Of a stretch of DNA of 62,593 nucleotides, positions 12,647-55,003 are shown in pieces. Both the position numbers and the translations under genes were made by a program. Below the pieces are notes generated by a model that saw only the letters and a program-made list of their open reading frames with translations, had not been told where the DNA came from and made no database searches. The stretch covers positions 1 through 62,593 of the forward strand of contig JAFVTL010000041.1 in the NCBI GenBank assembly GCA_017503235.1. The letters run 5' to 3'. The DNA is from Bacteroidaceae bacterium (GTDB taxonomy: Bacteria > Bacteroidota > Bacteroidia > Bacteroidales > Bacteroidaceae). The first letter of the stretch is position 1; each line of letters opens with the position of its first letter.

Positions 12647-12657
12647 ATTTTAGAGAT

Positions 12658-13222: not shown

Positions 13223-13455
13223 GGGCTAAGGCTGTTTTAAGCAACGGTAAAGAAGTCGATGCATTTCTTCCTGAAGAACTACATTCGGCCGATAAATCAA
13301 AAGAAATCTGTTTTTTCTTTGATACAGGACAAACCTATTACGGATTTTTGAGAGATATTGATGAATATGATAATGTTCATATAACGAGACCTGATGCTAA
13401 GTTTGATTTAGGATTAACGTTTAGTCGTCTATTGTTTTGGTTTTATAAAGAATGA
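13219..13455 (+). CDS. small phage protein of unknown function
   Basis: 78 residues, not recognised. It is rich in aspartate and aromatic residues and looks like a compact beta fold (KAVLSNGKEVDAFLPEE at the start). It overlaps both its upstream and downstream neighbours by four bases, the coupling typical of phage early operons, and this is the main support that it is real. Confidence 0.6.
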   Translation: MRAKAVLSNGKEVDAFLPEELHSADKSKEICFFFDTGQTYYGFLRDIDEYDNVHITRPDAKFDLGLTFSRLLFWFYKE

Positions 13456-13844
13456 AAGATATGAAAAAAGGACAAAAAGTGAGAGTGCTGGCCAACAACC
13501 GTGTCGGTACCATAATAGATAGTCATGTAATTAATCATGGCGGCAGAAGATATGTGGCATATCAAGTACGCTTTCTGAAGGATAAAGGAGAAGCCCCTTG
13601 GTTCCCGGCAGAGAAACTTTCAGCGGATTTCATTGAGAAAGCATCAGTGGTGATTACAGGCGAAGAAGGCTCATTGTTTTTTACGTATTCCGTAAACCAC
13701 CTCACACAACAAACTACAGTTGAATTGACTGGCAAGCCGGACGATCTTAAAGAGCATCACGGCTTGGATGCCTACTTGGCCGCTGCTCTTTTAAAAGGTC
13801 TGAGTTCCGATGCCAAACAACCTCTTCAAATGACAATTGAATGA
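13452..13844 (+). CDS. small phage protein with an SH3-like beta start
   Basis: 130 residues. The first ~50 (KKGQKVRVLANNRVGTIIDS, then a strand-rich run) resemble an SH3-like or KOW-like barrel, a fold often used for nucleic-acid or protein contact. The C-terminal part is soluble and unremarkable. It is flanked by four-base overlaps on both sides. No named family is recognised. Confidence 0.6.
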   Translation: MKDMKKGQKVRVLANNRVGTIIDSHVINHGGRRYVAYQVRFLKDKGEAPWFPAEKLSADFIEKASVVITGEEGSLFFTYSVNHLTQQTTVELTGKPDDLKEHHGLDAYLAAALLKGLSSDAKQPLQMTIE

Positions 13845-14110
13845 TGAAGTCTTTATTTACCACCCAACAATGGGAGACAGCCAAACCGGCTGACGTGGTT
13901 TACGACCACTTCTTCTATTCAGAGAGAGAACCCGGCAAAGTCCTGTTTGTACATGGGTTTATCAAGACAAGCAAACGTGTACAACTGTCCAATGGCCGCT
14001 CATCACGTAAGCCTTGTTATCGCAAGGCTATTTGGAATGGTTCCGGACTTTGCCGTATTGGTTCGTACCATGTTCGAGAACATAAGTATGACATTCCTTT
14101 GAGGGGTTAA
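13841..14110 (+). CDS. last gene of the early operon, unknown function
   Basis: 89 residues, basic at the C-terminus, no recognised domain. It ends the run of tightly overlapped small genes and is followed by two imperfect direct repeats and a terminator. The TAA stop lies inside the first of those repeats (14105-14127). Confidence 0.6.
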   Translation: MMKSLFTTQQWETAKPADVVYDHFFYSEREPGKVLFVHGFIKTSKRVQLSNGRSSRKPCYRKAIWNGSGLCRIGSYHVREHKYDIPLRG

Positions 14111-14153
14111 CCGTAGTCGAAGCATTTTAAAGGTTAACATAATCGAAGCATTT
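14105..14153 (+). repeat. imperfect tandem repeat at the end of the early operon
   Basis: Two copies, 14105-14127 and 14132-14153, share GGTTAAC and TCGAAGCATTT around a variable 4-5 bp. They immediately precede the terminator. Confidence 0.55.
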
Positions 14154-14158
14154 CAATC

Positions 14159-14190
14159 AAGCATCATCGTTTTTCGGTGGTGCTTTTTTT
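14159..14190 (+). terminator. early operon terminator
   Basis: Stem AAGCATCATC with GGTGGTGCTT (G-U pairs), a six-base loop and a run of seven T. It closes the early operon. Confidence 0.75.
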
Positions 14191-14272
14191 ATTCGTTCAA
14201 TCCCCCGAATACCCCCTTATAAAAGAAAAAAGGATTAATCGAGAGTTTTGAAAAATCCGAGCGAAAACCCCG

Positions 14273-14561
14273 ACCAACAAACCAACAAACCAACAGCAGA
14301 CGAAATTTTTCAATACTATAATAAGATAATTTTTTAATAAAGAGTAATATAGAAGTAGTTGTTGGTCGTTGGTTTTCGTTGGTCGGATTCGATTTCTTGT
14401 TGGTTTTTGTTGGTTTTAGATTTCCAACGTTTTCAGGCGGTTTTTCCTTAAAACCAACAGAATACCCCGTTGTTGGTCGCGTTGGTCAAAGATTTTTATG
14501 CATAAAATTTGCTTAATTCTTTAATAATGAGTAACTTTAAATGATTTGTTGGTTTGTTGGT
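14273..14561. repeat. cluster of 13 GTTGGT/ACCAAC hexamers in a noncoding stretch
   Basis: The gap 14191-14597 carries no gene. ACCAAC occurs at 14273, 14281, 14289 and 14453; GTTGGT at 14361, 14368, 14378, 14399, 14409, 14472, 14481, 14548 and 14556. Many lie in runs of two or three, 7-10 bp apart, and the left ACCAAC triplet can pair with the GTTGGT clusters. An iteron-type origin, a protein-binding array or a structured RNA are possible. Confidence 0.65.
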
Positions 14562-14597
14562 CGGTTTGACGCTTAAATAGGCATTTATTTTTCGATA

Positions 14598-15194
14598 ATG
14601 AGAAAAAGGGATAGATTCGTATGTTGGATATGGGTTTCTCCATACGTCAAGCAATACCTCTTGACTAATTTTAAAGTGGATGATCCTGATTGGCCGGAAC
14701 TGGTGAACATCAGTACCGACAAGACACTTGATGTACTTTTCCGTTCACGCCTGGTTAAACAATCACATCGGTACGACCGCCGCATCCAATCGGGCAACTA
14801 CAAATACCGAAATTGCAAAATAGCATTGGAAATTACCAAATCGGACTTCTATCAATACGGCTGGTCCTTGACCCCCACAGACGAAGCTGCGCTGTCAACG
14901 GCCATGGAGATTAGATGTCGGACGATGCTGATGACCTACTTGAGTGTGGCGTATATGGTGACTCCTGTATTGAGTACCTGCATTCGCCAGTTCTATGAGA
15001 AATTTCACTTTGATGAATTCACATGGCCATCGGATTCAATACGTAGGATTTGGAATAGAGATAAAACGGTGGATAAATCCACATTAAAAACGAACTTGAG
15101 TGAAAAAATAAATGAAATAATTCTTGTGCAATTGTTCAAAAATGGGACAATTACACAGCAAGGTAAAGAAAGGTATGAAAACACTGATTTTTGA
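14598..15194 (+). CDS. phage protein of unknown function
   Basis: 198 residues, basic, soluble, with several tryptophan- and tyrosine-rich patches (WIWVSPYVKQYLLTNF at about 10-25). A short hydrophobic stretch near 110-125 could be a buried helix. No family recognised. It sits alone after the hexamer cluster, between the early and structural blocks, and overlaps the next gene by about 20 bases. Candidates would be an origin-binding or regulatory protein because of its place, but nothing in the sequence shows this. Confidence 0.6.
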   Translation: MRKRDRFVCWIWVSPYVKQYLLTNFKVDDPDWPELVNISTDKTLDVLFRSRLVKQSHRYDRRIQSGNYKYRNCKIALEITKSDFYQYGWSLTPTDEAALSTAMEIRCRTMLMTYLSVAYMVTPVLSTCIRQFYEKFHFDEFTWPSDSIRRIWNRDKTVDKSTLKTNLSEKINEIILVQLFKNGTITQQGKERYENTDF

Positions 15195-15657
15195 TTTTGA
15201 CAATGTACATGGCATAGCCAATATGTATGCTGTTCCAGCAGCTGCGGTTTCTAAATGTGAGCGGAATCCGATGACTGGTGATGTTATCTTGAGGTTGACA
15301 GGCTCGGATGATGTTATTGAAATACCGACATACCAAGGAGACCACTTTAAAACTGAAGAAGTCCATCAATTGACAGATGGTGGCGATTGTTGGGATGTGA
15401 AAGTTTCGGGCATTATCCCGAAAAGAAGTGCAGTGAATGAGACTGTCATTCAAAAACTGGAGTGTGGTGAATGGATTGTTCTTACTCAAGATTCCAATGG
15501 AGAGATTGTCATCTATGGCACAACCGATGTTCCATTGAAGTTCACTCATTCCCGTTCTTCCGGTTCAAATGGTGAATTGAACGGTTCCGCTTTTACATTT
15601 TCCGCTAAGGAACCCGCACCATCTATGGTACTCTCAACATTGCCTACTATAATCTAA
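15175..15657 (+). CDS. phage protein of unknown function
   Basis: 160 residues from an ATG at 15175, preceded by the purine-rich stretch AAAGAAAGGT. A further upstream start at 15124 would run deep into the previous gene and is less likely. The sequence is beta-rich and acidic, ending in a serine-rich low-complexity tail. No family is recognised; a minor structural or regulatory protein is possible. It is followed by a strong terminator that separates it from the capsid block. Confidence 0.6.
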   Translation: MKTLIFDFDNVHGIANMYAVPAAAVSKCERNPMTGDVILRLTGSDDVIEIPTYQGDHFKTEEVHQLTDGGDCWDVKVSGIIPKRSAVNETVIQKLECGEWIVLTQDSNGEIVIYGTTDVPLKFTHSRSSGSNGELNGSAFTFSAKEPAPSMVLSTLPTII

Positions 15658-15674
15658 AATAGCTGTTTTTTGGC

Positions 15675-15710
15675 AAAATCCCGTGCTAAGTGTCCTTAGT
15701 GCGGGATTTT
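15675..15710 (+). terminator. terminator before the capsid block
   Basis: A 16-bp stem with two mismatches (AAAATCCCG...CTAAG against CTTAG...CGGGATTTT), a four-base loop and eight T. The GTGTCC box of the downstream promoter overlaps its loop and right arm. Confidence 0.85.
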
Positions 15711-15727
15711 TTTTGGCTGTAACTTTG
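15690..15727 (+). promoter_or_regulatory. predicted late promoter A (GTGTCC-N24-TAACTTTG)
   Basis: GTGTCC at 15690-15695, 24 bp, then TAACTTTG at 15720-15727, 23 bp before the protease ATG. It is one of four copies of the same arrangement. The usual -33 TTTG is absent. Confidence 0.7.
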
Positions 15728-15750
15728 GTTTGCTTTTAAAATAATAATGT

Positions 15751-16845
15751 ATGAATGAAGTAGTTCTTGAAGTCAATGGTATGATAGACCATTGGGGTTG
15801 GCAACGGACCAACATCAAACATTTCTTGCAGAAGAATAAAGGGAACGCCATTCGCTGTAAGATAAATAGCTGGGGCGGTTCAGTCAACGAAGCTTTGGCA
15901 ATATCAAAAATGTTCGAGGAACATGGCAATGTGACAGTTGAGTTCATTGGTTTTTGTGCATCGGCGGTTACATGGATGGCTTTCGGCGCAAAGACTCGTG
16001 AAATGCACGAAGACAGTCTTTGGCTCTGCCACAAAGCATCCATACGCGTAGATGTTTATGGACAAATGAATGCTGATCAGCTCGAACAGACTATCAAACA
16101 ACTCGAAAATGAAAAGAAAAATCAAGAGGCTGTCGATTTGATTATCGCCAAGAAATACTTGGATATGTGCAGCTCCAAGGAGAAAACCGTCAATGACATT
16201 TTCGAGCTTATGAAACAGGAACGATGGCTGACTGCTGATGAAGTCAAGGAATGGGGGTTCATCGATAAGGTCATTCCGGGCATCAATAAGGTGACCAATG
16301 AATATCGAAAATTGATGGTAGAGAATTGTGCTGCTTTAGAATTCCCGGTACCAGTATTCGAAGATGCCGCAGAAGAATCACCTATAGAGGTGCAGCCATC
16401 TAATGACATCGTTGAACGTATTGTCAATTCTATAAAGGCCATCTTCAGAACAAAAGAAAAAGAAGAACCAAGTACTAACTCTAATATTAATGCAATCATG
16501 AACAAGACTTTCGTGATGGTTAACGCCTTACTCGGAGTAGAAGGGTTGACCGAAAACAATGGTAAGGTTGAACTGACCATTGACCAGATCCAAACAATTT
16601 GCAATGCCTTGAAAGAGGCTGGTGAGAACAAAAAGACTGTCGAAGAAGCCACCAAGGCTATTGACAGTATTTCTGAAAACGTGAAAGCAATCTCTGGCTT
16701 GAGTAACAAGATTCAGGCAGTAGCTGCTGTTATCAACATGGTACCAAGCGGTGTTCCGGCAGGTAATGGTGTTCCTGCAAAGGAGAAAGAAGATTACAGT
16801 GAAATCGCAAAGGATCCTGTTAACGAATTTATCAACGAACGCTAA
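15751..16845 (+). CDS. ClpP-like head maturation protease with C-terminal scaffold region
   Basis: 364 residues. Residues 1-200 form a ClpP/S14 serine protease: INSWGGSVNEA at 39-49 supplies the oxyanion loop, S71 in GFCASAVTWMA is the nucleophile and H94 in LWLCHKAS the histidine. The last ~110 residues, starting at an internal MNKTFVMVNALLG, are helical and charged, like a scaffold. In such phages the protease cleaves scaffold and capsid N-termini during prohead assembly. An internal start at 16498 could give free scaffold. The gene directly precedes the major capsid gene by 19 bp and is the first gene after late promoter A. Confidence 0.9.
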   Translation: MNEVVLEVNGMIDHWGWQRTNIKHFLQKNKGNAIRCKINSWGGSVNEALAISKMFEEHGNVTVEFIGFCASAVTWMAFGAKTREMHEDSLWLCHKASIRVDVYGQMNADQLEQTIKQLENEKKNQEAVDLIIAKKYLDMCSSKEKTVNDIFELMKQERWLTADEVKEWGFIDKVIPGINKVTNEYRKLMVENCAALEFPVPVFEDAAEESPIEVQPSNDIVERIVNSIKAIFRTKEKEEPSTNSNINAIMNKTFVMVNALLGVEGLTENNGKVELTIDQIQTICNALKEAGENKKTVEEATKAIDSISENVKAISGLSNKIQAVAAVINMVPSGVPAGNGVPAKEKEDYSEIAKDPVNEFINER

Positions 16846-36054: not shown

Positions 36055-36257
36055 TGAAACACATCCAAATATCTTTCAAGCGGACAGAGAGTGACGGGCA
36101 GTTCCGGATAGCCGCCATCACGTATCCCGACGGTGGCCAGAACACCGAAGAGAACGACCTTGTCACCATCATGAACATTCTCCGCATAAGGGAGAAGCCG
36201 GTAGTGAGGACCGAAGAGAACAACGAATTTGCATACACGTTTGCAGCAGACTTTTAA
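36054..36257 (+). CDS. small protein between two tail genes
   Basis: 67 residues, beta-rich, unrecognised. Overlaps the preceding stop and ends 10 bp before the tail fibre ATG. Could be a fibre assembly or attachment factor. Confidence 0.55.
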   Translation: MKHIQISFKRTESDGQFRIAAITYPDGGQNTEENDLVTIMNILRIREKPVVRTEENNEFAYTFAADF

Positions 36258-36267
36258 AATAAAAACT

Positions 36268-39200
36268 ATGGACATATCAGAAATCGGACATAAGGCGAAC
36301 AGCCGACCCGTAACCAACAGACTATACCAGCTCGACGCGGAGGAATTCAACGCCATGCTGGACGAACTCATCAACCTGCGTACCTTGGTAGGTAATTCGG
36401 GGGTGGTCTACTCCGTGCGGATGCAGAACGACCTTGACAGCCGGAACATCGCCGCTTCCATCGGCTCCAAGTGCGAACTGAAGTTCACATTCGTCTCACG
36501 TATGCGTGACGGACTCGCCGATTGGGAATCCACCGGCGAATCGGCCACATTGAAGGTATCGCTGAAGAACATCAGCCACTCGGATTTCACCGTCATGCAG
36601 ACCATCAAGGTTGCGGACGGGCAGGCCATGACACTTGATGTGTCCGAATGGCTGGCGTCAGGTGCCAATCAGATCATGTTGGAGGCTACGGGCGAAATCT
36701 CCAAGAAGACAACCTCCGCGCTGGTGTACACCGTGCAGCTTACTTCCTTGGCTATCTCGGCGGAAGGCTTCCAGTGGTGGCGTGCCTTCGCCAACAACAT
36801 CGAGGTGCCTTACCGCATCAGCGGCAACATCAACAAGACACTGGTTGTCACCATATCGGGTTCCGGATACTCCAAGACCTACGAGCAGAACCTGGGTGAT
36901 GCAGTCTTCACCGAGTCACCTTACCCGTTCACCGTTCCCCATCCGGCACGTACCGGTGTGTTCAAGATTTCCGCTTACCTCCGCAACTCGGACGGTACCA
37001 TCCGTACGTCACCCTCCGAATATAACGTCATCTGTTATCTGAAGGGCAGCACAGCGAAACTGATGGCAGTCAACAATGTGGCGGAAGCGGCTACCAACTG
37101 GAACGAAACGGCCGTGTTCGACTTCTGTATCTACGAAGGGGATGCCGCCACATCATCCACTACCTTCAAGGTGACGAAGGACAAACTGACGGTGTTCCAG
37201 CGCGAAGACTCCAACCTCGCCACGAACACCAAGCATACACTTATCCTTCCGCTTGAAATCGAAACGGTGGACGACCTCGACTTCAATATCACCATCAATG
37301 CGTACAATGGCGAATACACCATGACGAATCCGGTGACGATGAAAGTAAACAACTCTACGGGCTATTCACCTTCCGCCGGTGCATCTGTCTATATCAATCC
37401 GAAGACAAGATCAAATGCGGCAGCCAATCGTCTGAAGCTCATCAACGAGGTGACGGGCGAAGAGATTACGCCGAAATGGAAGAACATGAACTGGTACAAC
37501 GACGGGCATACGGTGGACGAGAACGGCAACTCCGTCATGAGGCTGATTGCCGGCTCCTCGTGCGACACCGGTATCACACCTCTGAAACCCGAATCAGCCC
37601 GGACTGGTAAGCTGTTCGAGATGGAATACCGCATCTCCAACACGACCGACTTCAATGTTCCGGTCATCCAGTGCGCGAAAGAAACGGCAGGGGGATGGGT
37701 AGGCATCAAGGTCTATCCGGACAGAGTGGTGACCCATACGGCTGCACTCAAGATTGACGATGACCAGTCCTTCAAGTTCAACACCGAAGACCGCATCCAT
37801 CTGGCTATGGCCGTCATGCCGGATATCTACGGAACGAAGGACTACAACGTCTGTATTCTTTACGTGAACGGGGTGAAGAACCGTGAGTTCTCCTACGAAA
37901 GCAATGACTACTTCCTGGTGGATGATACGTTGAAGATAGGTTCTGACTATGCCGACGTGGACATCTACGGCATCCGCGTGTATAACCTTGCCGTAGGTTC
38001 TGATGGCCTTGTCAAGAACTTCATGTCGTGGCGTTCCTCCAACGACGAGAAAGCGGCCATCAAGAGCCGTAACGACCTGTACGATGCCGCCGGCACCAAG
38101 ATTGACATCGAGAAGGTGAAGAAATTGTGCAACGTGGTGGAATTTGAAGGGGAGATTCCTTCCTATACCAATCCGAACAAGTTCCGTAACAATGGCGCAA
38201 TCTATTGGAGAGACCATCCGTCCTGGAACATCAAGCTGACCAACGTGCCGCAGGACGGACAGGGTACATCTTCCAAGTTCTACTATCTGTGGAACCAGCG
38301 GTGGAAGACGGATGACGATACCATTATTACCTATGCGGACGGGACAACCGACAGGAAGAAGTTTACTTTCATTCCCGGCATGCCGAAGATTTCCAAATTC
38401 ACATGGAAGCTGAACTGGGCGTCATCGTGCCAGTGCAACAAGATGGGTTCCGTCAACTCCATCAACGACCTTGCCACTCTGCTTGACGTTCTGGATGAAA
38501 TCAAGAGTCGCCCGTCCATCTATCAGGAACCGTTCGTCGGTTTCCATAAGACATACAACGAAGAAGGCAAGCCGGTATATACCTTGCTCGGCCTTTACAC
38601 CGGTGGTCCTGACAAGAGCGATTCGGGTACCATGGGGCTGGATACCGACACTTATCCCGACCTGCTGTTCGTGGAAGGAGCGGACAACGGTTCCAAGTGT
38701 GCGCTCTTCAAGGTGCCATGGAACAAGAACAAGCCTTACATCAAATACAATGCCGATGAAGAATCTCTCCAGTATAACGGAGAGAACGCGTGGGACTACG
38801 ACGGCGGTGCTCCAGAAACGCAGGCCGCTGTACAGGCATTGTACGAAAAGTGCTGGATGCCACGATACAACTTCGTCTATCAGTGTTCTCCCAACCTGAC
38901 GTATTGGTCGGGTACGGTCGATTCGTTGAACTCGGCGGCCAACATAGCCGCCCATCGTGACGATGACACTGAGTTTTGGGTAGATGGTGGTAATGTGTAT
39001 TACTACGAAGCGGCGGAAGGAAAGTTCGTGCCGTCTGACATCGGTTCGGGTACCATCAACCTCTACACGCAGCTGGTTGATAAGGGCTATGGGCTGACCT
39101 CCTCCATGACATCGGGTAAGACAGGAACGCAACTGAACGAACTGTTCCGTGCCGCCCGTATCCTGAAGTTCGACAAGGAAGCTACTTCTTATTTCGGCAA

Positions 39201-41799
39201 GCGCAACCTTATCTTCACCCGTAACTGGATAGAATTTGACGGCGGTTCGGACAACCGCACGAAGAATACCTACTTCTTCATGCTGGGCGCACCGTCATCG
39301 GGATACCTCTGCTACTGCAAGCATGACGATACCGATACCATCGGACCATGGACGAACCAGGGACAGGACAAGAAGGGCTATTGGGTGGAAGTCGGTGACA
39401 AGTACGACAACGGCAACCCCGTCTGGAACGGCGAGCAGAACCGGTTGTTCAACCTTGTCGAACTGGCATGGCAGACAGACATCAAGGAGGAGATGGCCAA
39501 GTTCATGAACGGGATGATTGAATTGTCCGGCTCGAATACGGGTACCAATGCTGACAAGCTCTATGCCTTCTTCCATAAGTATTATTTCAGCAAGGCGCAG
39601 GAATACTTCCCTCAGACGCTGTACAACTCTACGGCTCAGATTCTCTATGAATCGGCCAAGCTCGCGCTGAAGCAGGGACGATATGAGAACGATACCGACC
39701 CGTTGTCACAGTCCATGGGTGACTACTACAGCGGATGGAAGCGTTGGGTCACTTACCGCATCCAGTACATGCAGTCCAAATATGCCTTCGGTGACTATTC
39801 GGCCAAGGGTACCGGACACATCATCGTTCGTGCCGCCGGTAACGACATCACTTACGAACTGACACCGGCCATTTGGATGTACCCGTGTGTCGCTACAGGT
39901 ACCTCCATCATCCGTGGGGTGCGCACGGCAGCCGGGCAGACTAGTTCCGTTACCATATCCCTGGCTGGCTCGGCCGACCAGCAGAACCAGATCAAGGGGG
40001 CGCATTACCTACAGTCCATCGGTTACTGGCACAACAAGCACGTGACCGGTCAGTTGACCATCGTAGGTAGGATGTTGCGTGAGCTGCACATCGGACACCC
40101 GACAGAGGACATCACTATATCCATTACCACGTTGTCGATATCCGAAACCCCATCCTTGCAGTTGGTGGATGTGCGTAGGGTGACTACCCTCGGAGGGGTG
40201 CTTGACCTTACATCCTGCACGCACCTCCAGAAAGTCTATGCGTCCGGTTCGTCCGTCGCTCAGGTGAAGTTGCCGTCAGGAGGGCCTCTTAACCATGTGG
40301 AATACGCTGCGGCCAACCAATACCTCATACTCCGTAACTTCCCGTTGCTGGCGTCTTCGGGGGTTGTCATCGACACCTGTCTGCTGTCCCTTACGGACGT
40401 ACTGGTGGAGAACTGCGCACAGCTCAACTCCATCGACATACTCCGTACCATCATGTCTGCACAACAGGCACAAGGGGACGCCCATGCACTCCAGCATGTG
40501 CGTGCGGTCGGCTTCGATGCGTACTATGAAGGGGTGGACGGTACGGAGGTCATGGATTTGCTGGCACAGCTGGCCGACGGCTCATACTCCGGGCTTGACT
40601 CCAACGGCCTTGCCGGTTCGGAACCTGTACCGGTGCTCGATGGTACACTGACCATCAACTCATCCATCTACAAGGATTCGGAGGATGCGTTGAAAGCATA
40701 CTTCAATCGTCTTGTTCTGAACATTACGGGTGAGTATTACATCCGCTTTGCCGACAAGGTGGTTCAGCAGCTCTGTGCAACGAATTGGGGTGACGGCGTA
40801 GGATTGACCGAATCGAAGGCTGCCACCGTCACATCTTTGGGCAGCGTGTTCGGCTCGAACACCGAGATTACGTCGTTTGATGAGTTGGAATACTTTACAA
40901 AAATAGAAGTGCTTAATGGTCGGGTTTTTCTAAATTGTGTCAATTTAAAGAGAGTTATAATGCCGGAGCGGATTGATAAAATAGAATCCATGGCTTTTGA
41001 TGGTTCTGGAATAGAAAGTATCAATTTGAATTACATCAAATCACTTGAAACATATTCTTTCAGAAATTGCTCTAACTTAAAAGTAATTGATATGCCAAAT
41101 TTGAGATATTGGGGAGTTAGTGAAACTGGCTATGGTCAATTTAGTTCATCGGGAATTGTCAAAATAATCAATTTGGGTATGATTACCACCATTCCAAATT
41201 ACTTCGCCTCTTCTTCAACTTCTTTGGAACAAGTGATATTACCTGAAGGAACAATATCCATTGGACAAGAAGCGTTTCAAAGGTGCTCTGCACTAAGGGA
41301 CGTCTATCTGCCTAAATCAATTACAACTCTCAATGGCAGTTGTTTTTATGGGGCGGCTGTACAGAATGATATAGACCTTCCAAATCTAACATATATGGGT
41401 GGTGCTGTTTTTGCATATTGTGACATGAAAAGAATAATATCTTTGGGGTCTATTACAGATACAGGTAATAGTGCATTTGGTGATACGTTGGTTGAAGAAG
41501 TAAATCTGCCTACAACACTGGTGAGAATAGGCACAAACGCATTTGTTAATTGTAAAGAGCTCCGCCAAATAGAGATACCCGTGAATGTGACAGAGATAGG
41601 ACAATCAGCATTTCAGAATTGCACAAAACTTGAAACGGTTGTTCTCCGCCCGACCACACCGCCGACATTGGGTAATTACAATCATTACGGTAATCAAGCA
41701 AGATGGTATGTCCCTGATGAATCACTTTCAGCTTACCAAGCCGCTACTAACTGGAGTGCGTTTGCATCAAGAATAAAAGGTATAAGCGAATTACCATAG
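36268..41799 (+). CDS. giant tail fibre with an exchangeable leucine-rich-repeat tip (cassette A)
   Basis: 1843 residues from the ATG at 36268. Residues 1-1527 are constant: an N-terminal attachment region, a concanavalin/LamG-like domain at about 370-575 and a long beta-rich shaft. Residues 1528-1843 are BspA-type leucine-rich repeats (LRR_5) that start exactly at the recombination site (VFGSNTEITSFDELE) and end in a conserved cap YQAATNWSAFASRIKGISEL. The tip is visibly more AT-rich than the shaft. Two inverted silent cassettes with the same start and end lie downstream, so the tip is probably swapped by DNA inversion. The tip should contact the host surface. Confidence 0.9.
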   Translation: MDISEIGHKANSRPVTNRLYQLDAEEFNAMLDELINLRTLVGNSGVVYSVRMQNDLDSRNIAASIGSKCELKFTFVSRMRDGLADWESTGESATLKVSLKNISHSDFTVMQTIKVADGQAMTLDVSEWLASGANQIMLEATGEISKKTTSALVYTVQLTSLAISAEGFQWWRAFANNIEVPYRISGNINKTLVVTISGSGYSKTYEQNLGDAVFTESPYPFTVPHPARTGVFKISAYLRNSDGTIRTSPSEYNVICYLKGSTAKLMAVNNVAEAATNWNETAVFDFCIYEGDAATSSTTFKVTKDKLTVFQREDSNLATNTKHTLILPLEIETVDDLDFNITINAYNGEYTMTNPVTMKVNNSTGYSPSAGASVYINPKTRSNAAANRLKLINEVTGEEITPKWKNMNWYNDGHTVDENGNSVMRLIAGSSCDTGITPLKPESARTGKLFEMEYRISNTTDFNVPVIQCAKETAGGWVGIKVYPDRVVTHTAALKIDDDQSFKFNTEDRIHLAMAVMPDIYGTKDYNVCILYVNGVKNREFSYESNDYFLVDDTLKIGSDYADVDIYGIRVYNLAVGSDGLVKNFMSWRSSNDEKAAIKSRNDLYDAAGTKIDIEKVKKLCNVVEFEGEIPSYTNPNKFRNNGAIYWRDHPSWNIKLTNVPQDGQGTSSKFYYLWNQRWKTDDDTIITYADGTTDRKKFTFIPGMPKISKFTWKLNWASSCQCNKMGSVNSINDLATLLDVLDEIKSRPSIYQEPFVGFHKTYNEEGKPVYTLLGLYTGGPDKSDSGTMGLDTDTYPDLLFVEGADNGSKCALFKVPWNKNKPYIKYNADEESLQYNGENAWDYDGGAPETQAAVQALYEKCWMPRYNFVYQCSPNLTYWSGTVDSLNSAANIAAHRDDDTEFWVDGGNVYYYEAAEGKFVPSDIGSGTINLYTQLVDKGYGLTSSMTSGKTGTQLNELFRAARILKFDKEATSYFGKRNLIFTRNWIEFDGGSDNRTKNTYFFMLGAPSSGYLCYCKHDDTDTIGPWTNQGQDKKGYWVEVGDKYDNGNPVWNGEQNRLFNLVELAWQTDIKEEMAKFMNGMIELSGSNTGTNADKLYAFFHKYYFSKAQEYFPQTLYNSTAQILYESAKLALKQGRYENDTDPLSQSMGDYYSGWKRWVTYRIQYMQSKYAFGDYSAKGTGHIIVRAAGNDITYELTPAIWMYPCVATGTSIIRGVRTAAGQTSSVTISLAGSADQQNQIKGAHYLQSIGYWHNKHVTGQLTIVGRMLRELHIGHPTEDITISITTLSISETPSLQLVDVRRVTTLGGVLDLTSCTHLQKVYASGSSVAQVKLPSGGPLNHVEYAAANQYLILRNFPLLASSGVVIDTCLLSLTDVLVENCAQLNSIDILRTIMSAQQAQGDAHALQHVRAVGFDAYYEGVDGTEVMDLLAQLADGSYSGLDSNGLAGSEPVPVLDGTLTINSSIYKDSEDALKAYFNRLVLNITGEYYIRFADKVVQQLCATNWGDGVGLTESKAATVTSLGSVFGSNTEITSFDELEYFTKIEVLNGRVFLNCVNLKRVIMPERIDKIESMAFDGSGIESINLNYIKSLETYSFRNCSNLKVIDMPNLRYWGVSETGYGQFSSSGIVKIINLGMITTIPNYFASSSTSLEQVILPEGTISIGQEAFQRCSALRDVYLPKSITTLNGSCFYGAAVQNDIDLPNLTYMGGAVFAYCDMKRIISLGSITDTGNSAFGDTLVEEVNLPTTLVRIGTNAFVNCKELRQIEIPVNVTEIGQSAFQNCTKLETVVLRPTTPPTLGNYNHYGNQARWYVPDESLSAYQAATNWSAFASRIKGISELP
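40848..40899 (+). repeat. inversion site 1 (expressed)
   Basis: A 52-bp site. The 13-bp core GTTCGGCTCGAAC is an inverted repeat GTTCG-nnn-CGAAC. It encodes the junction FGSNTEITSFDELE in the fibre. Confidence 0.85.
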
Positions 41800-41833
41800 A
41801 AACAAATTCTTACAAACCGAATATACATATTCA

Positions 41834-41888
41834 TATCGGGTAGAAATTGGGTAGAGCATATTGTCATCTACCGGTTTTCTACCCGATA
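41834..41888. terminator. shared bidirectional terminator between cassettes A and B
   Basis: The arms TATCGGGTAGAAA and TTTCTACCCGATA pair perfectly over 13 bp, with a second nested stem GGTAGA...TCTACC inside. It sits between convergent cassettes A and B and would end transcripts in either orientation. Confidence 0.7.
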
Positions 41889-41914
41889 ATTATGATACGG
41901 AGAGTATGTAAGGA

Positions 41915-42811
41915 TTATTGTAGCTCACTTATCCCTTTAATTCTGCTTGCGTACCCTACCCATCCAGTCGCCGCTTTATAAGCATCCACAGAATCATCTG
42001 GGACATATATCGTCATTTTATCGCACCCCCAAAAAGTTGCATGACCCAATGTTGGAGGCGTGGTTGCATTAACAATAAGTGTTTCAAGATTCGAACAACC
42101 ATTAAATACATTATAACCAACCGTTGTTGTCGTTGAAGGCAAATTGACGTAAGTAAGATTTTTGCAGTCTTTAAACATATTGTTTTGATAGATAGAGGTT
42201 GCACCAAGGTTCAATACTTTGGTAATACCCGAATTCGCAAAACAGGACTCTCCATCTTTATCTAACGTGCTAAGGTTCGGTAAATCAATTTCTATTTGCA
42301 GATTTGTGCAGTTTAAGAATACACTAGAAGAAAGAAGAATGATGTTCTCTTGTTTAAGAACTAAAGTACGCAAATTAGAGCAACCTGAAAAAACACCTCC
42401 GGATAGTTTGGTTAAGGTATCTGGCAATATGCACATCTCAAGCAACTTATTGCCACCAAATGTTTCTTTCATACTTGTGATGCTTCCGAGGCTTGTAACC
42501 TTTCTGATTTGCGCTCCGAGCCCGAATTGACCACCATCAAGATTACCAGTAAGATTTGGTAAATACAATTCATCCATAACTAAAGACGGACATGAACGAA
42601 ACGCACCCCATCCTAATGATGTAACACTCGGTGGAATGTTTATGGATTCCAAACTGCTTTGATAAAATGCGCTTCCTTCTATTTTTGTCACATTATTGCT
42701 CAATCTCACAGATTTAATGGATGAACTTACAAACGCTTCTTTATTGATGGTCTTCAATCCTGTAAACAATTCCAACTCGTTAAAAGAGGTAATCTCCGGG
42801 TTCGAGCCGAA
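41915..42811 (-). CDS. silent tail-fibre tip cassette B (headless)
   Basis: 298 residues in frame with the fibre, starting at inversion site 2 (FGSNPEITSFNELELFTGL) and made of BspA-type leucine-rich repeats up to the conserved cap AYKAATGWVGYASRIKGISEL. It lacks a start codon suited to expression and any N-terminal domain, so it is silent until inversion joins it to the fibre. The repeats differ strongly from cassette A apart from the two ends, as expected for alternative receptor-binding tips. Convergent with cassette A. Confidence 0.85.
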   Translation of the reverse strand, partial: FGSNPEITSFNELELFTGLKTINKEAFVSSSIKSVRLSNNVTKIEGSAFYQSSLESINIPPSVTSLGWGAFRSCPSLVMDELYLPNLTGNLDGGQFGLGAQIRKVTSLGSITSMKETFGGNKLLEMCILPDTLTKLSGGVFSGCSNLRTLVLKQENIILLSSSVFLNCTNLQIEIDLPNLSTLDKDGESCFANSGITKVLNLGATSIYQNNMFKDCKNLTYVNLPSTTTTVGYNVFNGCSNLETLIVNATTPPTLGHATFWGCDKMTIYVPDDSVDAYKAATGWVGYASRIKGISELQ

Positions 42812-42812
42812 C
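42761..42812 (-). repeat. inversion site 2
   Basis: Inverted copy of site 1 with the core GTTCGGCTCGAAC at 42812-42800 and several differences after it (CCGGAGATTACCTCTTTTAA). The sequence before the core is not shared with the other sites. Confidence 0.85.
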
Positions 42813-42857
42813 TGGGAATTAAATTTTTACTATAATATTTGAATCAAAAACAATTCC

Positions 42858-42865
42858 TATATTTG
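42858..42865 (+). promoter_or_regulatory. -7 box ahead of the 75-residue gene
   Basis: TATATTTG, a perfect TAnnTTTG, lies 15 bp before the ATG at 42881, which argues for that start. TTTG occurs 16 bp upstream, a little close for a -33 box. Confidence 0.5.
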
Positions 42866-42880
42866 CAAAAAACATATCTT

Positions 42881-43108
42881 ATGAAAGCTATTAAAGACAA
42901 AAAAGGAACTCATAATCGTGGGTATGTAGGTCCGATTTACGAGTACTATACCAAAGAAGAACGAAAGGAAAGAAGAAAAATGTTCAAATCTGTCCGCCAT
43001 AAGTTAAAGATGCAAATACCTCTTACAGCGGAGGAGGAAGAATATAGAATAGCTCATAGCATAAATAGCGATTCAAAAATGACATACGATGGATACAGAA
43101 GTCTTTAA
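42881..43108 (+). CDS. small basic protein inside the invertible region
   Basis: 75 residues from the ATG at 42881; an earlier ATG at 42839 lies upstream of the -7 box. Very basic, with KEERKERRKMFKSVRHKLKM near 25-44, so it probably binds nucleic acid. No family recognised. It has its own promoter, so it is expressed in either orientation. Being between sites 2 and 3, it might affect switching, but nothing shows this. Confidence 0.55.
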   Translation: MKAIKDKKGTHNRGYVGPIYEYYTKEERKERRKMFKSVRHKLKMQIPLTAEEEEYRIAHSINSDSKMTYDGYRSL

Positions 43109-43112
43109 TGAT

Positions 43113-43137
43113 AAAAGCCCCTATAATTGGGGCTTTT
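43113..43137. terminator. bidirectional terminator
   Basis: A perfect stem AAAAGCCCC-tataatt-GGGGCTTTT between two convergent small genes, with A and T runs on the two sides. Confidence 0.8.
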
Positions 43138-43139
43138 CT

Positions 43140-43400
43140 TTATCCATCCATCGAATCCCAAGGAATGTATAAAATAAGAGACACGAACATGCCAAGAGCT
43201 GCAGAAACAATGTCTCCCCAATCGAATTTTTCATCTAACAAAGCCTCCTTAATTACAGACAACAACATTACACACACAAACACAATAGCCATCCACTTAA
43301 ATCCGTAAGCACTTGCAGCACTAACCAACCATCCAGCTATTGCAAAGTGGGCCACTTTGTCATAGCCCACCTTACTAATCAGATTATTCAGCACTTTCAT
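43140..43400 (-). CDS. small membrane protein (YfiM/DUF2279-like motif)
   Basis: 86 residues with two membrane segments (IAGWLVSAASAYGF and MAIVFVCVMLLSVI) and a third hydrophobic end. The pattern VGYDKVAHF...KEALLDEKFDWGD resembles the DKxxH...KE..D motif of YfiM-like proteins. It overlaps the upstream 94-residue gene by 17 bases. It follows cassette C in the same direction, so it would lie downstream of the fibre if C were switched on. Function unknown. Confidence 0.6.
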   Translation of the reverse strand: MKVLNNLISKVGYDKVAHFAIAGWLVSAASAYGFKWMAIVFVCVMLLSVIKEALLDEKFDWGDIVSAALGMFVSLILYIPWDSMDG

Positions 43401-43668
43401 CCTTGGCGATGTATTTGTCCATTACTTCCTCAGCTGTCGGCTGGGTTTTGTAAATACGATAACCATCTTCGTCATAAGTGTACGGGTCGTCAATCTCTTC
43501 GTAGTGTTCGGGCAGTTCGTCGATGGGTTCATCCAGCTTCTGACCGCCGAGGTACCAAGTCTTGCCAAGGTAAATTTCCTTACCTGCTTCAAATCCATCC
43601 GAGATACGTCTGAGTATCTTCCCCTCAGAGGCTTTCAATACTGTTGTTTCGATAGTTTTTATTTCCAT
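43384..43668 (-). CDS. phage protein associated with the fibre cassette
   Basis: 94 residues, acidic, soluble, beta start followed by an acidic tyrosine-rich tail. Proteins of this kind commonly follow fibre genes in Bacteroides phages; a chaperone or fibre-associated role is possible but unproven. It lies 43 bp after cassette C in the same direction and has its own promoter overlapping the end of C. Confidence 0.6.
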   Translation of the reverse strand: MEIKTIETTVLKASEGKILRRISDGFEAGKEIYLGKTWYLGGQKLDEPIDELPEHYEEIDDPYTYDEDGYRIYKTQPTAEEVMDKYIAKDESAE

Positions 43669-43692
43669 TTCTAAAAGGGTTTAAGTTCAATA

Positions 43693-43723
43693 CAAATATA
43701 ACAAATTTCTGTTACTCAGGCAA
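43693..43723 (-). promoter_or_regulatory. promoter TTG-N20-TATATTTG for the 94/86-residue pair
   Basis: On the minus strand TTG (43723-43721), 20 bp, then TATATTTG (43700-43693). The -33 part lies inside the last codons of cassette C, so the pair can be transcribed when C is silent. Confidence 0.6.
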
Positions 43724-45064
43724 TTCTGACAAAGGTTTTATTCGGCTTGCATACTTGCTCCAGTTTGTCGCTGATTTGTATGCCGAAACCGAGGCATCGG
43801 GAACGTATATAAGGAATGAATCGCTTGTGTTTATAAATATATCCTGTATTGTAGGCGGCGTTATTGCTTCGCATATAATTGTCTGCAATGAATAACAATT
43901 TCTGAAAGCGGCATACGTAATTTCTGTAATGCTGCTTGGTAATTTCATATAATACAATCTCTTACACCCATCGAATGCGTATGACAATGTAGTTATCTTT
44001 CCAAGACTTTCTACTCGCTCTATGTTTGTATTGAGAAACGCATTCGCACCGATTGATTCTAAGTTTGGCAAGTCTACAACCATGTTCACTATTGTTCCTT
44101 GAAACGCACTATCCATCACTTTAATGCTCTTTGGCAGGTTAATGTCAACAAGGTTGGTACAATTACCAAAACAAGATTTCCCTAATTCAGTAATTGTTTC
44201 TGGTAATACAACAGATGTTAAGTTTGGATTACCACTGAAACAATATTCGGGGATAGAGGTAATCGTACCCAAATTAGTAATTTTACCAATCTTTACATCT
44301 TGAAATGCGTATAACCCTATTGATGTCAATTTAGGAAGGCTCAATTCGTCAATCACTAATGTTGAACATAATCGAAAAGCATAATTTCCAATGCTTGTAA
44401 ATCCATCATTAAAAGGAACTGATTCAAGATTAGAACATTTGTCAAAACAGTTATTTCCAATAGTAGTTATTTTGCCCCAATTAACTACCGAAACGACTCC
44501 TGATGTGGAAAACGCTACATTGCCAAGACTTACGAGATTAGGCAAATCAACTACCATTGGAGCTGGTACTTTGTTGAAAGACGAACCTCCAATAGTATTT
44601 ATTGATTTTGGTAGGTTTATTTCAGCAAGTGCAGTACAACCTTGAAATACTTCTGCATCAATAGTAGTGACCGTATCGGGTATAACAACAGAAGTTAGTT
44701 TTTTACAACCATAGCAACTTCTATAACTAAGAATTGTAATTTTACCTAAAGAATGAATTTTAGTTACACCAGATTCATAAAAAGCATGGCTGCCAAAACT
44801 TGTCAAGTTGGGAAAATTGACTTCTATTTCAAGAGGAGTGCCGTTTATTATAAAAGCACCTATCTTTGTTAAAGATTCAGGTAAATTTACCGAGGTTAGG
44901 CTTGTGCAATTTTGAAATAATCGTTCGCCTATTTCTGTTAGTCCTTCGGGCAATCTCGCACTTACCAAATTAGTACAATCTCTAAAGGCATGGGCAGCTG
45001 TTCTCTTCAATCCTGTAAATAATTCCAACTCATCAAACGACGTTATCTCCGTGTTCGAGCCGAA
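43712..45064 (-). CDS. silent tail-fibre tip cassette C (headless)
   Basis: 450 residues in frame from inversion site 3 (FGSNTEITSFDELELFTGL). It consists of BspA-type leucine-rich repeats and ends in AYKSATNWSKYASRIKPLSEL, the same cap as A and B. It is the longest of the three tips. An open frame extends upstream to 45181, but that part is antisense to the recombinase gene and not part of the cassette. It has no expression signals of its own. Confidence 0.85.
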   Translation of the reverse strand, partial: FGSNTEITSFDELELFTGLKRTAAHAFRDCTNLVSARLPEGLTEIGERLFQNCTSLTSVNLPESLTKIGAFIINGTPLEIEVNFPNLTSFGSHAFYESGVTKIHSLGKITILSYRSCYGCKKLTSVVIPDTVTTIDAEVFQGCTALAEINLPKSINTIGGSSFNKVPAPMVVDLPNLVSLGNVAFSTSGVVSVVNWGKITTIGNNCFDKCSNLESVPFNDGFTSIGNYAFRLCSTLVIDELSLPKLTSIGLYAFQDVKIGKITNLGTITSIPEYCFSGNPNLTSVVLPETITELGKSCFGNCTNLVDINLPKSIKVMDSAFQGTIVNMVVDLPNLESIGANAFLNTNIERVESLGKITTLSYAFDGCKRLYYMKLPSSITEITYAAFRNCYSLQTIICEAITPPTIQDIFINTSDSFLIYVPDASVSAYKSATNWSKYASRIKPLSELPE

Positions 45065-45065
45065 C
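45014..45065 (-). repeat. inversion site 3
   Basis: Inverted copy of site 1 with the core at 45065-45053, matching site 1 closely over 52 bp (GTCGTTTGATGAGTTGGAA). It ends 22 bp from the recombinase ATG. Confidence 0.85.
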
Positions 45066-45087
45066 TTTTTGTATCTTCGACTAAAAA

Positions 45088-46248
45088 ATGAAAAAGATTC
45101 GTTACCGCTACGTCTACAACCGGAAAAAGAAATTGAACGCTCAAGGTACGGCACTCGTACAGATTGAAGCCTCTCTTCCATACCGAAAAATCTATATCAG
45201 CACAAGGGTGTACGTCCGACCGGAAGAATGGGACAACAACACCGCCATGATAATCAATCATCCAAACGCCATGCAACTGAATGCCTATATCGGGAAGTTG
45301 CGAATCAAGTTGGAACAGACAGAAATGTCCTTGTGGCAACGAGGTATTATCCCAACTTTGCTACAACTGAAGCAAGTGTCATGTGACGATAGAAGCGTTA
45401 CCTCTTCATTCTGCCAGTTCGCGACATCGGCCATAAAACTTTCACAACGTAAGCCGGAAACGAAACGCAGTCTGCTCGGAACACTGGCAATTCTTGCCAA
45501 CTTCATGCCGGGATATGACTGGGGCGACCTGAATTACTCTTTCCTCAAGAACCTCGAACAATACCTGTTGGCCAAGGGCTCCGCAGTCAATACCATCGCC
45601 AAGCACCTCCGCAATGTCCGCACACTGATAGGAGAGGCCATGTCGCAAGGGTACATATCCTCCGACGAGAATCCTTTCCGTTCCTTCAAGATACACTACG
45701 AGAACCGGCCGCACCGATTTCTGAATCCCGACGAACTGAGAAGAATGGAGAATGTACGTGTGACTGGTAAGCTCGCCCATGTACGCGATGCGTTCCTGTT
45801 TTGCTGTTACACAGGCTTGCGGTACTCAGATTTCCGCCTACTTCGTGAAGACAGCTTTCTGAAGATAAAGGGTAACATGTGGCTGCACATCAAGACGGAG
45901 AAGACCGGATACGACCTTAAAATACCTCTGCATCTCGTGTTTGGCGGTAAGGCATTGGAAATCCTTTCCCGTTATCCGTCCGTAGAAACATTCTCCGACA
46001 TCCGCTCCAACGCAGAAACCAACCGCCGGCTACGTGAACTGCAACAGATGGCCAAGATAAAGACCAGGGTGACATTCCACACCGCCCGGCATACCTGTGC
46101 CACCCTCCTTTGTCACCAAGGGGTACCGATAACTACAGTGCAGCGCATCTTAGGACATACGAAACTGACCACCACACAGCTCTACTCCGAAGTGATGGCA
46201 GACACGATCGTGAAGGACTTGAAGAATGTTAAGAAGAATTACCGATAA
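45088..46248 (+). CDS. tyrosine recombinase, probable fibre invertase
   Basis: 386 residues. An N-terminal arm-binding domain (about 1-90) and SAM-like core-binding domain (100-200) precede a catalytic domain with all active residues: R245 (TGLRYSDF), K269 region, H331 and R334 (FHTARHTC), H357 (LGHTKL) and Y366. It starts 22 bp outside inversion site 3, the place of the enzyme in shufflons. The prophage has a second, different recombinase at its end for integration, so this one is free to serve inversion. No room exists for a full promoter between site 3 and the start, so transcription must come from inside the invertible region. Confidence 0.85.
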   Translation: MKKIRYRYVYNRKKKLNAQGTALVQIEASLPYRKIYISTRVYVRPEEWDNNTAMIINHPNAMQLNAYIGKLRIKLEQTEMSLWQRGIIPTLLQLKQVSCDDRSVTSSFCQFATSAIKLSQRKPETKRSLLGTLAILANFMPGYDWGDLNYSFLKNLEQYLLAKGSAVNTIAKHLRNVRTLIGEAMSQGYISSDENPFRSFKIHYENRPHRFLNPDELRRMENVRVTGKLAHVRDAFLFCCYTGLRYSDFRLLREDSFLKIKGNMWLHIKTEKTGYDLKIPLHLVFGGKALEILSRYPSVETFSDIRSNAETNRRLRELQQMAKIKTRVTFHTARHTCATLLCHQGVPITTVQRILGHTKLTTTQLYSEVMADTIVKDLKNVKKNYR

Positions 46249-46341: not shown

Positions 46342-46872
46342 ATGGCACAAGCAGATCTTCTTATTCCTTTTGTCCTTTCATGGGAGGGTGGTTATGTGAA
46401 TAATCCTGATGATAAAGGTGGACCCACTAATATGGGTGTTACTTTATCAACGTATTCACGATATTGCCGATATAAGGCTTATCCTCGTCCTACAATAGAG
46501 AGGCTTCAGAACTTACCCATGGATACATGGCGCGAAATCTTCAAAATATTCTATTGGAATGTTTGTCGTGCTGATGAAATCGAGAACCAGGCAATCGCTA
46601 ATCTGGTCGTCGATTGGTTTTGGTGCTCCGGCAAGTGGGCGATAAAATATACTCAGCAAGTATTAGGCGTTGAACCCGATGGTATAGTTGGTCCTATCAC
46701 ATTGGATGCTCTGAACTCCATGAGTTCGTTGGATCTATTCGCCAGCTTATGGAAGAAACGAGAACTTCACTTCATAGCTTTGGCTCATCGTAAGGGGCAA
46801 GGACAATTCTTAAAAGGGTGGTTGAACCGACTGCATTCGATAAGATATTACGGACTGATCAATAATGAGTGA
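46342..46872 (+). CDS. endolysin, GH108-type muramidase
   Basis: 176 residues. FVLSWEGGYVNNPDDKGGPT near 10-29 is the catalytic start of glycoside hydrolase family 108, with E15 as catalytic acid. A C-terminal part (VLGVEPDGIVGPITLDAL) is a short peptidoglycan-binding motif of the usual family form. It cleaves glycan strands of peptidoglycan for lysis after the holin opens the membrane. No signal peptide, so it depends on the holin. First gene of the late unit D. Confidence 0.9.
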   Translation: MAQADLLIPFVLSWEGGYVNNPDDKGGPTNMGVTLSTYSRYCRYKAYPRPTIERLQNLPMDTWREIFKIFYWNVCRADEIENQAIANLVVDWFWCSGKWAIKYTQQVLGVEPDGIVGPITLDALNSMSSLDLFASLWKKRELHFIALAHRKGQGQFLKGWLNRLHSIRYYGLINNE

Positions 46873-53611: not shown

Positions 53612-54796
53612 TTACAAATTTCCTTCATAATTCTTTAGCTCGGGATGCGCTTTCAATTGTTCTTTCCGTACGTACTTGTTGGTGGTTACTACTGATGAAT
53701 GGCGTGCCTGGTCTTTGGCGATGGTCAATCCCACACGATCGATGGCATCAGTGATACCCGTATCTTTCAAACTGTAGAATTGATAACAGTCCGGCCATTG
53801 TAGAGCTTCACGAACTTTCGCCCATTCTTCTCTGAAGATTCGGGCATCAGACTTGTGTTCGCTTGGAGTGAACTGTCGGCCGAACAGATAGAAGTTCCCG
53901 GGGTAACTGAATACTTTCTTGTCTAACATCATATGAATGACTTTGGCGGGCAAGGTCACCTTGGCATCTTTACGGTTCTTGCTGATGTCCTTACTCACGA
54001 ATATGGTTTGTTCGGCCAGATTGATGTCATCAATCCGGATGCTGCACATCTCGCAAGGTCGAATAAGGGTGTAATAATGTACGAGACAGGCCAACAAGAA
54101 ATCTGAATTTCGTATTTCCAAATACTCTTTCAGTTTCTTGAGGTCTTGTTGGGTCAGAGTTTTCCGTTTCTTGTCATCCTCACGGAGTAGGGGTATCCGT
54201 TCTGCTGAATTCGCTGTAATGTATCCGTTATTATATAGGTAAGTACATAATGAACTGACCCAACGTAGGTAGTTGTTCCTGGTTCGGGGACTGGTGTCTT
54301 TATCAACATAAACCCATTCCAGAAAACCTTCGATGTAATTTCGGTCGAATTGGTAAGCATAGACAATTTTTTGCTCCAGCTGTTCATTGTAAGCTGACAA
54401 TGTTCTGAGACGGGACATATAGTCTGTTACCGTTTTGGGTTTCATTACATTGTCCTTAAGCAGTTTCTTTATATAATGTTCGTATCTGTCTAAGACCGTT
54501 GTTATTATGGTGAAACCTTTCTTACCGCTCTCTTGAATCAACGGATTCCAACCTTGCTTCAACTTGATGGCCACTTCATCACGGAACCGAAGAGCAGCTT
54601 CGTCCCGTTCCTTTTTATTATGTATGTAATTGAATTTTTTCCGGACTCGACGTAAACGGGGACTCCCGTCCATGACAGACTCCGGGTCCAGTACGTAGAA
54701 ATAGACGTATTTCTCTTTCCCTTTCCGACAATATATCGGTAAACGGTATTTCTCAATTTCAGAGAAGTTTAATTTTCGCTTGGGTTCAGAAAACAT
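53612..54796 (-). CDS. prophage integrase (tyrosine recombinase)
   Basis: 394 residues, next to the right att site, so it is the enzyme for integration into tRNA-fMet. Arm-binding (1-90) and core-binding (100-200) domains precede a catalytic domain with R246 (LIRPCEM), H366 (QARHSSV) and Y375 (NKYV). The usual HxxR box II is replaced by YSLKD (341-345, Y and K in place of H and R), a variant known in Bacteroidetes integrases. It differs strongly from the invertase. No excisionase was recognised. Start at 54796 agrees with the inverted repeat upstream. Confidence 0.9.
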   Translation of the reverse strand: MFSEPKRKLNFSEIEKYRLPIYCRKGKEKYVYFYVLDPESVMDGSPRLRRVRKKFNYIHNKKERDEAALRFRDEVAIKLKQGWNPLIQESGKKGFTIITTVLDRYEHYIKKLLKDNVMKPKTVTDYMSRLRTLSAYNEQLEQKIVYAYQFDRNYIEGFLEWVYVDKDTSPRTRNNYLRWVSSLCTYLYNNGYITANSAERIPLLREDDKKRKTLTQQDLKKLKEYLEIRNSDFLLACLVHYYTLIRPCEMCSIRIDDINLAEQTIFVSKDISKNRKDAKVTLPAKVIHMMLDKKVFSYPGNFYLFGRQFTPSEHKSDARIFREEWAKVREALQWPDCYQFYSLKDTGITDAIDRVGLTIAKDQARHSSVVTTNKYVRKEQLKAHPELKNYEGNL

Positions 54797-54926: not shown

Positions 54927-54931
54927 AAGAG

Positions 54932-55003
<72 letters not shown>

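Follow-up and report, generated by a model that had tools for sequence, protein, structure and literature searches.

A candidate tail-tip shufflon with leucine-rich-repeat cassettes and a dedicated tyrosine recombinase in a Bacteroidales prophage

Gene content of the fibre locus

The stretch of DNA analysed here, hereafter the window, is the whole contig JAFVTL010000041.1 (62,593 nucleotides) of the Bacteroidaceae bacterium assembly GCA_017503235.1, one of the 145 contigs (C32) of a 2.6-Mb assembly (2,600,028 bases; 83.66% complete). The contig carries a prophage, with genes for a primase, a head protease, tail, an endolysin and an integrase. Within this prophage we examined a tail-fibre gene, the two silent cassettes that follow it and an adjacent tyrosine recombinase, which together form a putative shufflon of the fibre tip. 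The features of the locus are:

36268..40847, + strand: constant stem of the tail fibre, 1526 codons upstream of the core, within the open reading frame 36229-41799
40848..41799, + strand: tip A, the leucine-rich-repeat (LRR) tip presently fused to the stem
40848-40860, + strand: site A, 13-bp core GTTCGGCTCGAAC within the fibre gene
41834..41888, no strand: inverted repeat in the gap on which tip A and cassette B converge, putatively a terminator
41915..42812, - strand: cassette B, a silent headless LRR cassette
42800-42812, - strand: site B, 13-bp core GTTCGGCTCGAAC heading cassette B
43712..45065, - strand: cassette C, a silent LRR cassette without a stem
45053-45065, - strand: site C, 13-bp core GTTCGGCTCGAAC heading cassette C, 22 bp from the start codon of the recombinase
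45088..46248, + strand: tyrosine recombinase (invertase) of 386 amino acids, starting 22 bp after 45065
46342..46872, + strand: endolysin (Glyco_hydro_108, PG_binding_3), the first gene after the invertase
53612..54796, - strand: prophage integrase, separate from the recombinase and adjoining tRNA-Met 54931-55003

The stem matched PHROG 24896 and 14959, both of unknown function, and homologous stems occur in other Bacteroidales loci. Joined in silico to the stem from 36268, tips A, B and C yielded open proteins of 1843, 1825 and 1977 amino acids, all three closed by the same kind of end cap. The tips are 34-39% identical over the longer alignments, and each of them matches LRR_5 (PF13306). Both silent frames stay open, over 298 and 450 codons. 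Cassette B is preceded by in-frame stops shortly 5' of its core and lacks a start codon ahead of it; for cassette C, the sole candidate start is a formal in-frame ATG, located 39 codons upstream within the antisense of the recombinase gene. In the phage collection, tips B and C had only distant LRR matches, all below 60% identity.

The assembly as a whole contains three copies of the core GTTCGGCTCGAAC, all at this locus (a reversed-pattern control gave 0 copies), and the core is one of eight 13-mers with at least three copies in the window on either strand. The sequence CTGAAATCTGAAA is present there in four copies. Inverted repeats of 52 nt begin at the core, with 92% identity between sites A and C and 85% between A and B. 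DNA similarity among the sites starts at the core and extends for only ~50-60 bp, and the sequences 5' of it look unrelated by eye; the three cores are thus identical while their flanks differ. Site A is inverted relative to sites B and C, which are direct repeats of each other, and each of the three cores heads an alternative C-terminus, as is expected of a shufflon.

The recombinase matched the Pfam domains Arm-DNA-bind_5 (residues 9-91, E-value 5e-16), Phage_int_SAM_5 and Phage_integrase, which rule out a serine invertase of the Gin/Cin type. Its frame is uninterrupted and retains R245, K272, H331, R334, H357 and Y366, which we take to be the catalytic residues of a tyrosine recombinase. 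The locus therefore holds a complete recombinase of its own, distinct from the prophage integrase, and we infer that it acts on the three cores. The initial annotation, made from the letters alone, had described a fibre gene and two inverted, in-frame silent cassettes that begin with one identical 13-bp core (40848, 42800 and 45053), end in a conserved cap and differ in the leucine-rich repeats between, with a complete recombinase 22 bp past the last site. All of these elements were recovered here, the three protein lengths included.

Relatives of the recombinase and of the fibre

Relatives of the recombinase were found in 26 of 201 genomes of the family at an E-value of 1e-60 and in 25 of 61 genomes of the genus at 1e-100, the own genome being included in both counts. 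Two kinds of neighbourhood were opened, namely tail-tip loci and host loci of the SusC type. Tail-tip loci related to that of the window are present in at least 6 of the 61 same-genus genomes, as judged from the best-matching loci, which were the ones opened.

The recombinase and the enzymes of nine other loci (47-67% identity) form one clade, supported by 100/100 in two trees. The long-branched L032, which is not known as a tail-tip locus, fell within this clade in the first tree and was omitted from the second. Seven of the nine relatives (BS-TP2, L039, L040, L137, L138, L139 and L141) resemble the window in having an enzyme of the same clade with cores on both strands and cassettes upstream of it. 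Their core is an 11-mer, (G/C)TGG(G/A)(A/G)G(G/A)A(C/T)T, with two copies in L039, four each in L137 and L138, five each in L139 and BS-TP2, six in L040 and eight in L141, counted over 3.2 kb upstream of the enzyme (1.1 kb for L039). A holin and an endolysin are annotated downstream in BS-TP2, and similar-looking frames were recognised by eye in L039, L137 and L138, whereas L040 has an integrase-like gene in place of lysis-type genes. These loci differ from the window in their tail protein, in their short cassettes, which do not look like LRRs by eye, and in their 11-bp core. The enzyme of L140 (G206:C1:2469500-2489000) groups with the BS-TP2 invertase and is 52% identical to that of the window; by eye, its neighbours are lipoprotein-like, with no tail cassettes.

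Among these relatives, BS-TP2 (PQ571275.1) is a named phage of Bacteroides salyersiae BG8 with a complete genome record. Its gp3, annotated as an integrase, is 53% identical to the window enzyme and sits between the tail and lysis genes when the linear record is read across its ends; another integrase is encoded by gp12. The virome contig MT837885.1 follows BS-TP2 as far as a core, with 99.7% identity across 3878 bp. Past this core, a silent cassette of BS-TP2 lies inverted (98.4%, 309 bp) and continues the reading frame of the same stem; a second core comes next, and behind it stands the former BS-TP2 tip as a headless cassette (91.7%, 786 bp). Adjacent matching segments share 12 and 14 bp where they meet, at the cores. 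MT837885.1 had no match to any part of the BS-TP2 enzyme gene.

The fibre stem provided a further set of relatives, consisting of 63 loci in 47 groups after merging; the tip queries may miss distant tips, and several of these contigs end there. LRR stretches on both strands were found in seven groups (L067, L072, L079, L105, L118, L124 and L126); in an eighth group, L112, all LRR cassettes run in the direction opposite to that of the stem. At least three kinds of repeat occur: GTTC-N5-GAAC (L067), CTATCAGGACTCTGT (L112, L118) and AGTCCCGATGGGATTAAAA (L072, L124, L126). A recombinase beside the cassettes was found only in L124 and L126, and it is ~31% identical to that of the window. The tip expressed in L126 has an 80% identical silent counterpart in L124 (cassette s3), and the one expressed in L072 has an 81% identical silent counterpart in L126 (s4); in two further pairs (79% and 86% identical), the partners are on opposite strands. 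Judging from these matches, the cassettes of L124, L126 and L072 have changed places. With six LRR tips each (12000-16200 in both), one fused and five silent, on both strands, L124 and L126 represent a larger LRR tip shufflon, the enzyme of which falls outside the clade of the window enzyme. In L067 (MT835639.1, 15204-16382), a fibre tip and an inverted cassette share a 62-nt perfect inverted repeat with a core similar to that of the window. No relative of the window enzyme was found nearby, and this switch may depend on an enzyme in trans. L112 and L118 (12259-14780), from Bacteroides oleiciplenus and B. timonensis, carry inverted LRR cassettes at the core CTATCAGGACTCTGT, and no recombinase was recognised downstream of these cassettes. 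The sequence now behind the stem of L112 is not LRR-tip-like.

The second kind of enzyme neighbourhood comprised 17 SusC-type loci (L041-L057), whose enzymes are 38-46% identical to that of the window. Inverted repeats flank the enzyme on both sides in 16 of them, all but L057, which is close to the end of its contig. One large neighbour gene per locus, given to Pfam for nine of the 17 loci, was a TonB-dependent receptor in all nine. As in the window, these loci have GTTC/GAAC-like half sites, and homology between their repeats stops at a core such as AAAGTTCCGGCCGAACT (more divergent in L053). Between the window core, read as GTTCGAGCCGAAC, and its closest SusC-type counterpart, GTTCCGGCCGAAC, two of the 13 positions differ; homology ends at GAAC in both. 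The window locus is nevertheless not a SusC-locus invertase system: such systems act on host outer-membrane receptor genes, in the loci examined with the enzyme between the repeats, whereas the target in the window is a phage tail fibre and the enzyme lies outside the segment. A tree nested the phage enzymes within the SusC-type enzymes (forks 95/89 and 98/94). An approximately unbiased (AU) test did not reject the SusC-type enzymes as a clade of their own (p 0.53, the constrained tree being 1.03 log units better), so that an origin of the phage enzymes from within the latter is only one of the directions that would fit. The host assembly has one SusC-type locus (L049); a pseudogene considered there was dropped, as the frame encodes 385 amino acids without an internal stop. 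A site matrix was built from 16 SusC-type sites (13 distinct), and its top match in the window is 7541-7557 (AACGTTTTTGCAGAACT, rank 1), possibly by chance.

The segment between sites A and C additionally holds three genes and a promoter-like element:

42839..43108, + strand: small passenger gene of unknown function, with no Pfam, PHROG or NCBIfam match
43140..43400, - strand: passenger gene for a small membrane protein, holin-like by appearance only, with no Pfam, PHROG or NCBIfam match
43384..43668, - strand: passenger gene 'meik', separated from cassette C by 43 bp and directed against the fibre
43693..43723, - strand: promoter-like TTG-N20-TATATTTG before gene 43384-43668, overlapping the end of cassette C

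The promoter-like match is one of 10 such in the window; the published -7 consensus is TAnnTTTG (PMC4747536). Homologues of 43384-43668 were found in 11 fibre-relative loci (eight groups once near-identical loci were merged). In all eight groups the homologue lies downstream of the fibre and on its strand, whereas in the window it is on the opposite strand. In L075, a single strand carries the fibre, the homologue, a holin-like gene (a weak match, E-value 8e-5) and a lysozyme, in this order. Reversal of the A-C segment would bring back the common gene order, so that an A-C inversion in the history of the prophage is the simplest reading. The reversed passenger gene is probably a fossil of such an inversion.

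Proposed tip switching and alternative explanations

Based on these findings, we postulate that the locus is a tail-tip shufflon of a Bacteroidales prophage, switched by the recombinase 45088-46248, and give this reading a probability of about 0.9. Its anatomy and kinship suggest that the shufflon is real and very likely functional. The recombinase would join two opposed 13-bp cores and invert the DNA between them, such that an A-B inversion would place cassette B behind the stem and an A-C inversion would place cassette C there. Enumeration of the inversions between opposed cores gave four arrangements. According to the map, tip A would be expressed in the present arrangement, tip B in one other and tip C in the remaining two; together they would yield three fibres with differing LRR tips and a common stem and end cap. 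Since only the tip fused to the stem would be made as a fibre, each genome would display one tip. The LRR tip is presumably the receptor-binding end, in which case a phage population would hold several host ranges, and tip switching would change the host range.

The three-way invertible tip had already been suggested by the initial annotation, and it is now backed by the anatomy, the BS-TP2/MT837885.1 swap, the exchange of cassettes among fibre relatives and the orientation of the passenger gene. The proposed search of relatives for other orders was answered in part: rearrangement between cores is seen in relatives (the cassettes of L124/L126/L072, and BS-TP2/MT837885.1), whereas no other order of the window locus itself was found.

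Several observations weigh against the shufflon interpretation. The absence of a second arrangement reflects one copy in the assembly and no near relative in the viral or phage collections: the recombinase had no relative among viral contigs, a 10-kb megablast against phages gave no match, and the extended core was found 0 times in viral contigs. MT837885.1 is a virome scaffold marked 'UNVERIFIED', so that a misassembly is possible, although its breakpoints at the cores and its open frame argue that it is a real inversion product. Within the clade, the contig of L136 (the 67% relative) ends 271 bp upstream of the enzyme and has no core in those 271 bp, no 11-bp core was found upstream of the enzyme in L140, and the 4.3 kb before the window enzyme, which has its own 13-bp core, contain 0 copies of the 11-mer. 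Since sites B and C are direct repeats, a deletion between them is also conceivable and must be avoided or tolerated. Finally, the SusC-type matrix puts the three window cores only 25th-27th of ~125,000 positions. None of 30 column-permuted matrices ranked them as well (best 303rd); the specificity thus looks related to that of the SusC-type enzymes, not the same, and the matrix was rejected as a clean identification of the window cores.

Three other explanations are conceivable. The switch may have worked in an ancestor and now be frozen or decaying in this prophage, with the cassettes as relics. A single arrangement, the lack of a close sequenced relative and a present order that puts the holin-like gene opposite to the fibre and endolysin strand would all fit this scenario, yet we consider it unlikely given the intact recombinase frame with its conserved residues, the silent frames of 298 and 450 open codons, and cores that stay identical though their flanks differ. 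Inversion in trans by a host SusC-type invertase, alone or as a partner, would fit with a core that resembles SusC-type sites such as GTTCCGGCCGAAC, with homology ending at the same GAAC, with a host assembly that encodes one such locus and with a phage enzyme 38-46% identical to the 17 SusC-type enzymes; L067, where a similar core lies in a 62-nt inverted repeat but a relative of the window enzyme was not found nearby, points in the same direction. A complete local enzyme beginning 22 bp from site C, together with a matrix that leaves the cores off the top, makes this very unlikely. The cassettes could also supply sequence for homologous recombination or gene conversion, the recombinase having another role such as that of a second integrase. 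Three related LRR blocks of 34-39% protein identity do stand together, but their DNA similarity begins at the core and covers only ~50-60 bp, and breakpoints lie within the core beside a related enzyme. We find this explanation hardly credible, and second integrase was rejected as the main role of the recombinase, as a separate integrase sits at the tRNA end.

Beyond the shufflon itself, a broader and rather doubtful possibility is that gut Bacteroidales phages carry a clade of tail-tip invertases from the same family as the host SusC shufflers, such that phage and host would vary their surfaces by related enzymes, the two possibly acting on each other's sites. According to the map, from which this was derived rather than computed, genes 43140-43668 would share the strand of the fibre only when tip C is expressed, in two of the four arrangements. 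The switch might therefore also turn a putative lysis gene, which would be on the late strand only with tip C, coupling receptor choice to lysis.

Comparison with known invertible systems

The proposed switch is reminiscent of Rin, a receptor-binding shufflon driven by a tyrosine recombinase in prophages of Bifidobacterium (PMC6109161) and Eggerthella lenta (PMC8778435). According to these reports, Rin likewise combines a prophage tyrosine recombinase apart from the integrase, a constant receptor-binding stem and inverted silent C-terminal cassettes at a short core (the 11-bp rix in Bifidobacterium), giving one stem with several C-termini. There are also differences. The Bifidobacterium Rin is without the N-terminal arm-binding domain of the window enzyme, and we therefore regard the latter as working like Rin without filing it as Rin. 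Moreover, rix is an asymmetric 11-mer, whereas the window core is a near-palindromic 13-mer; Rin tips measure 95-100 residues, or are small H-type lectin proteins in E. lenta, as opposed to LRR tips of 298-450 residues; and other genes ride within the invertible segment of the window. Gin, Cin and Min of Mu, P1 and p15B also invert alternative tail-fibre ends (PMC6109161), with a serine recombinase in place of a tyrosine recombinase. Among Bacteroidales invertases, Tsr0667 of Bacteroides fragilis acts on SusC/SusD genes in shufflon fashion (Nakayama-Imaohji 2009, as cited in PMC4747536 and PMC11852207); its likeness to the window locus is drawn via the SusC-type loci L041-L057.

The initial annotation had suggested that the system may be new. 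This does not hold for the principle, since Rin is published (PMC6109161, PMC8778435), and it may hold for the combination of an LRR tip with this class of enzyme, which was absent from the literature searched. No tail shufflon of a Bacteroidales phage was found in the accessible portions of this open-licence literature, which included PMC8042965, PMC7511551, PMC12386605, PMC10939037, PMC5903667, PMC5729914, PMC11852207 and PMC4747536, with most subscription papers outside its scope. The unusual features are the LRR tips, an enzyme that has an arm domain and is akin to the invertases of host SusC loci, and the passenger genes in the segment.

Phase variation of the host surface is well known in gut Bacteroidales, and the window locus looks like a matching strategy on the side of the phage. 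If true, this would account in a testable way for the continued infection of phase-variable hosts by such phages. The phage enzymes are also close to the host enzymes that shuffle receptors, which prompts the question of a shared origin and of cross-talk between them. Further LRR_5 (BspA-type) matches are present elsewhere in the host assembly (G000), on contigs C8, C28, C37 and C138, and on C33 below the cut-off.

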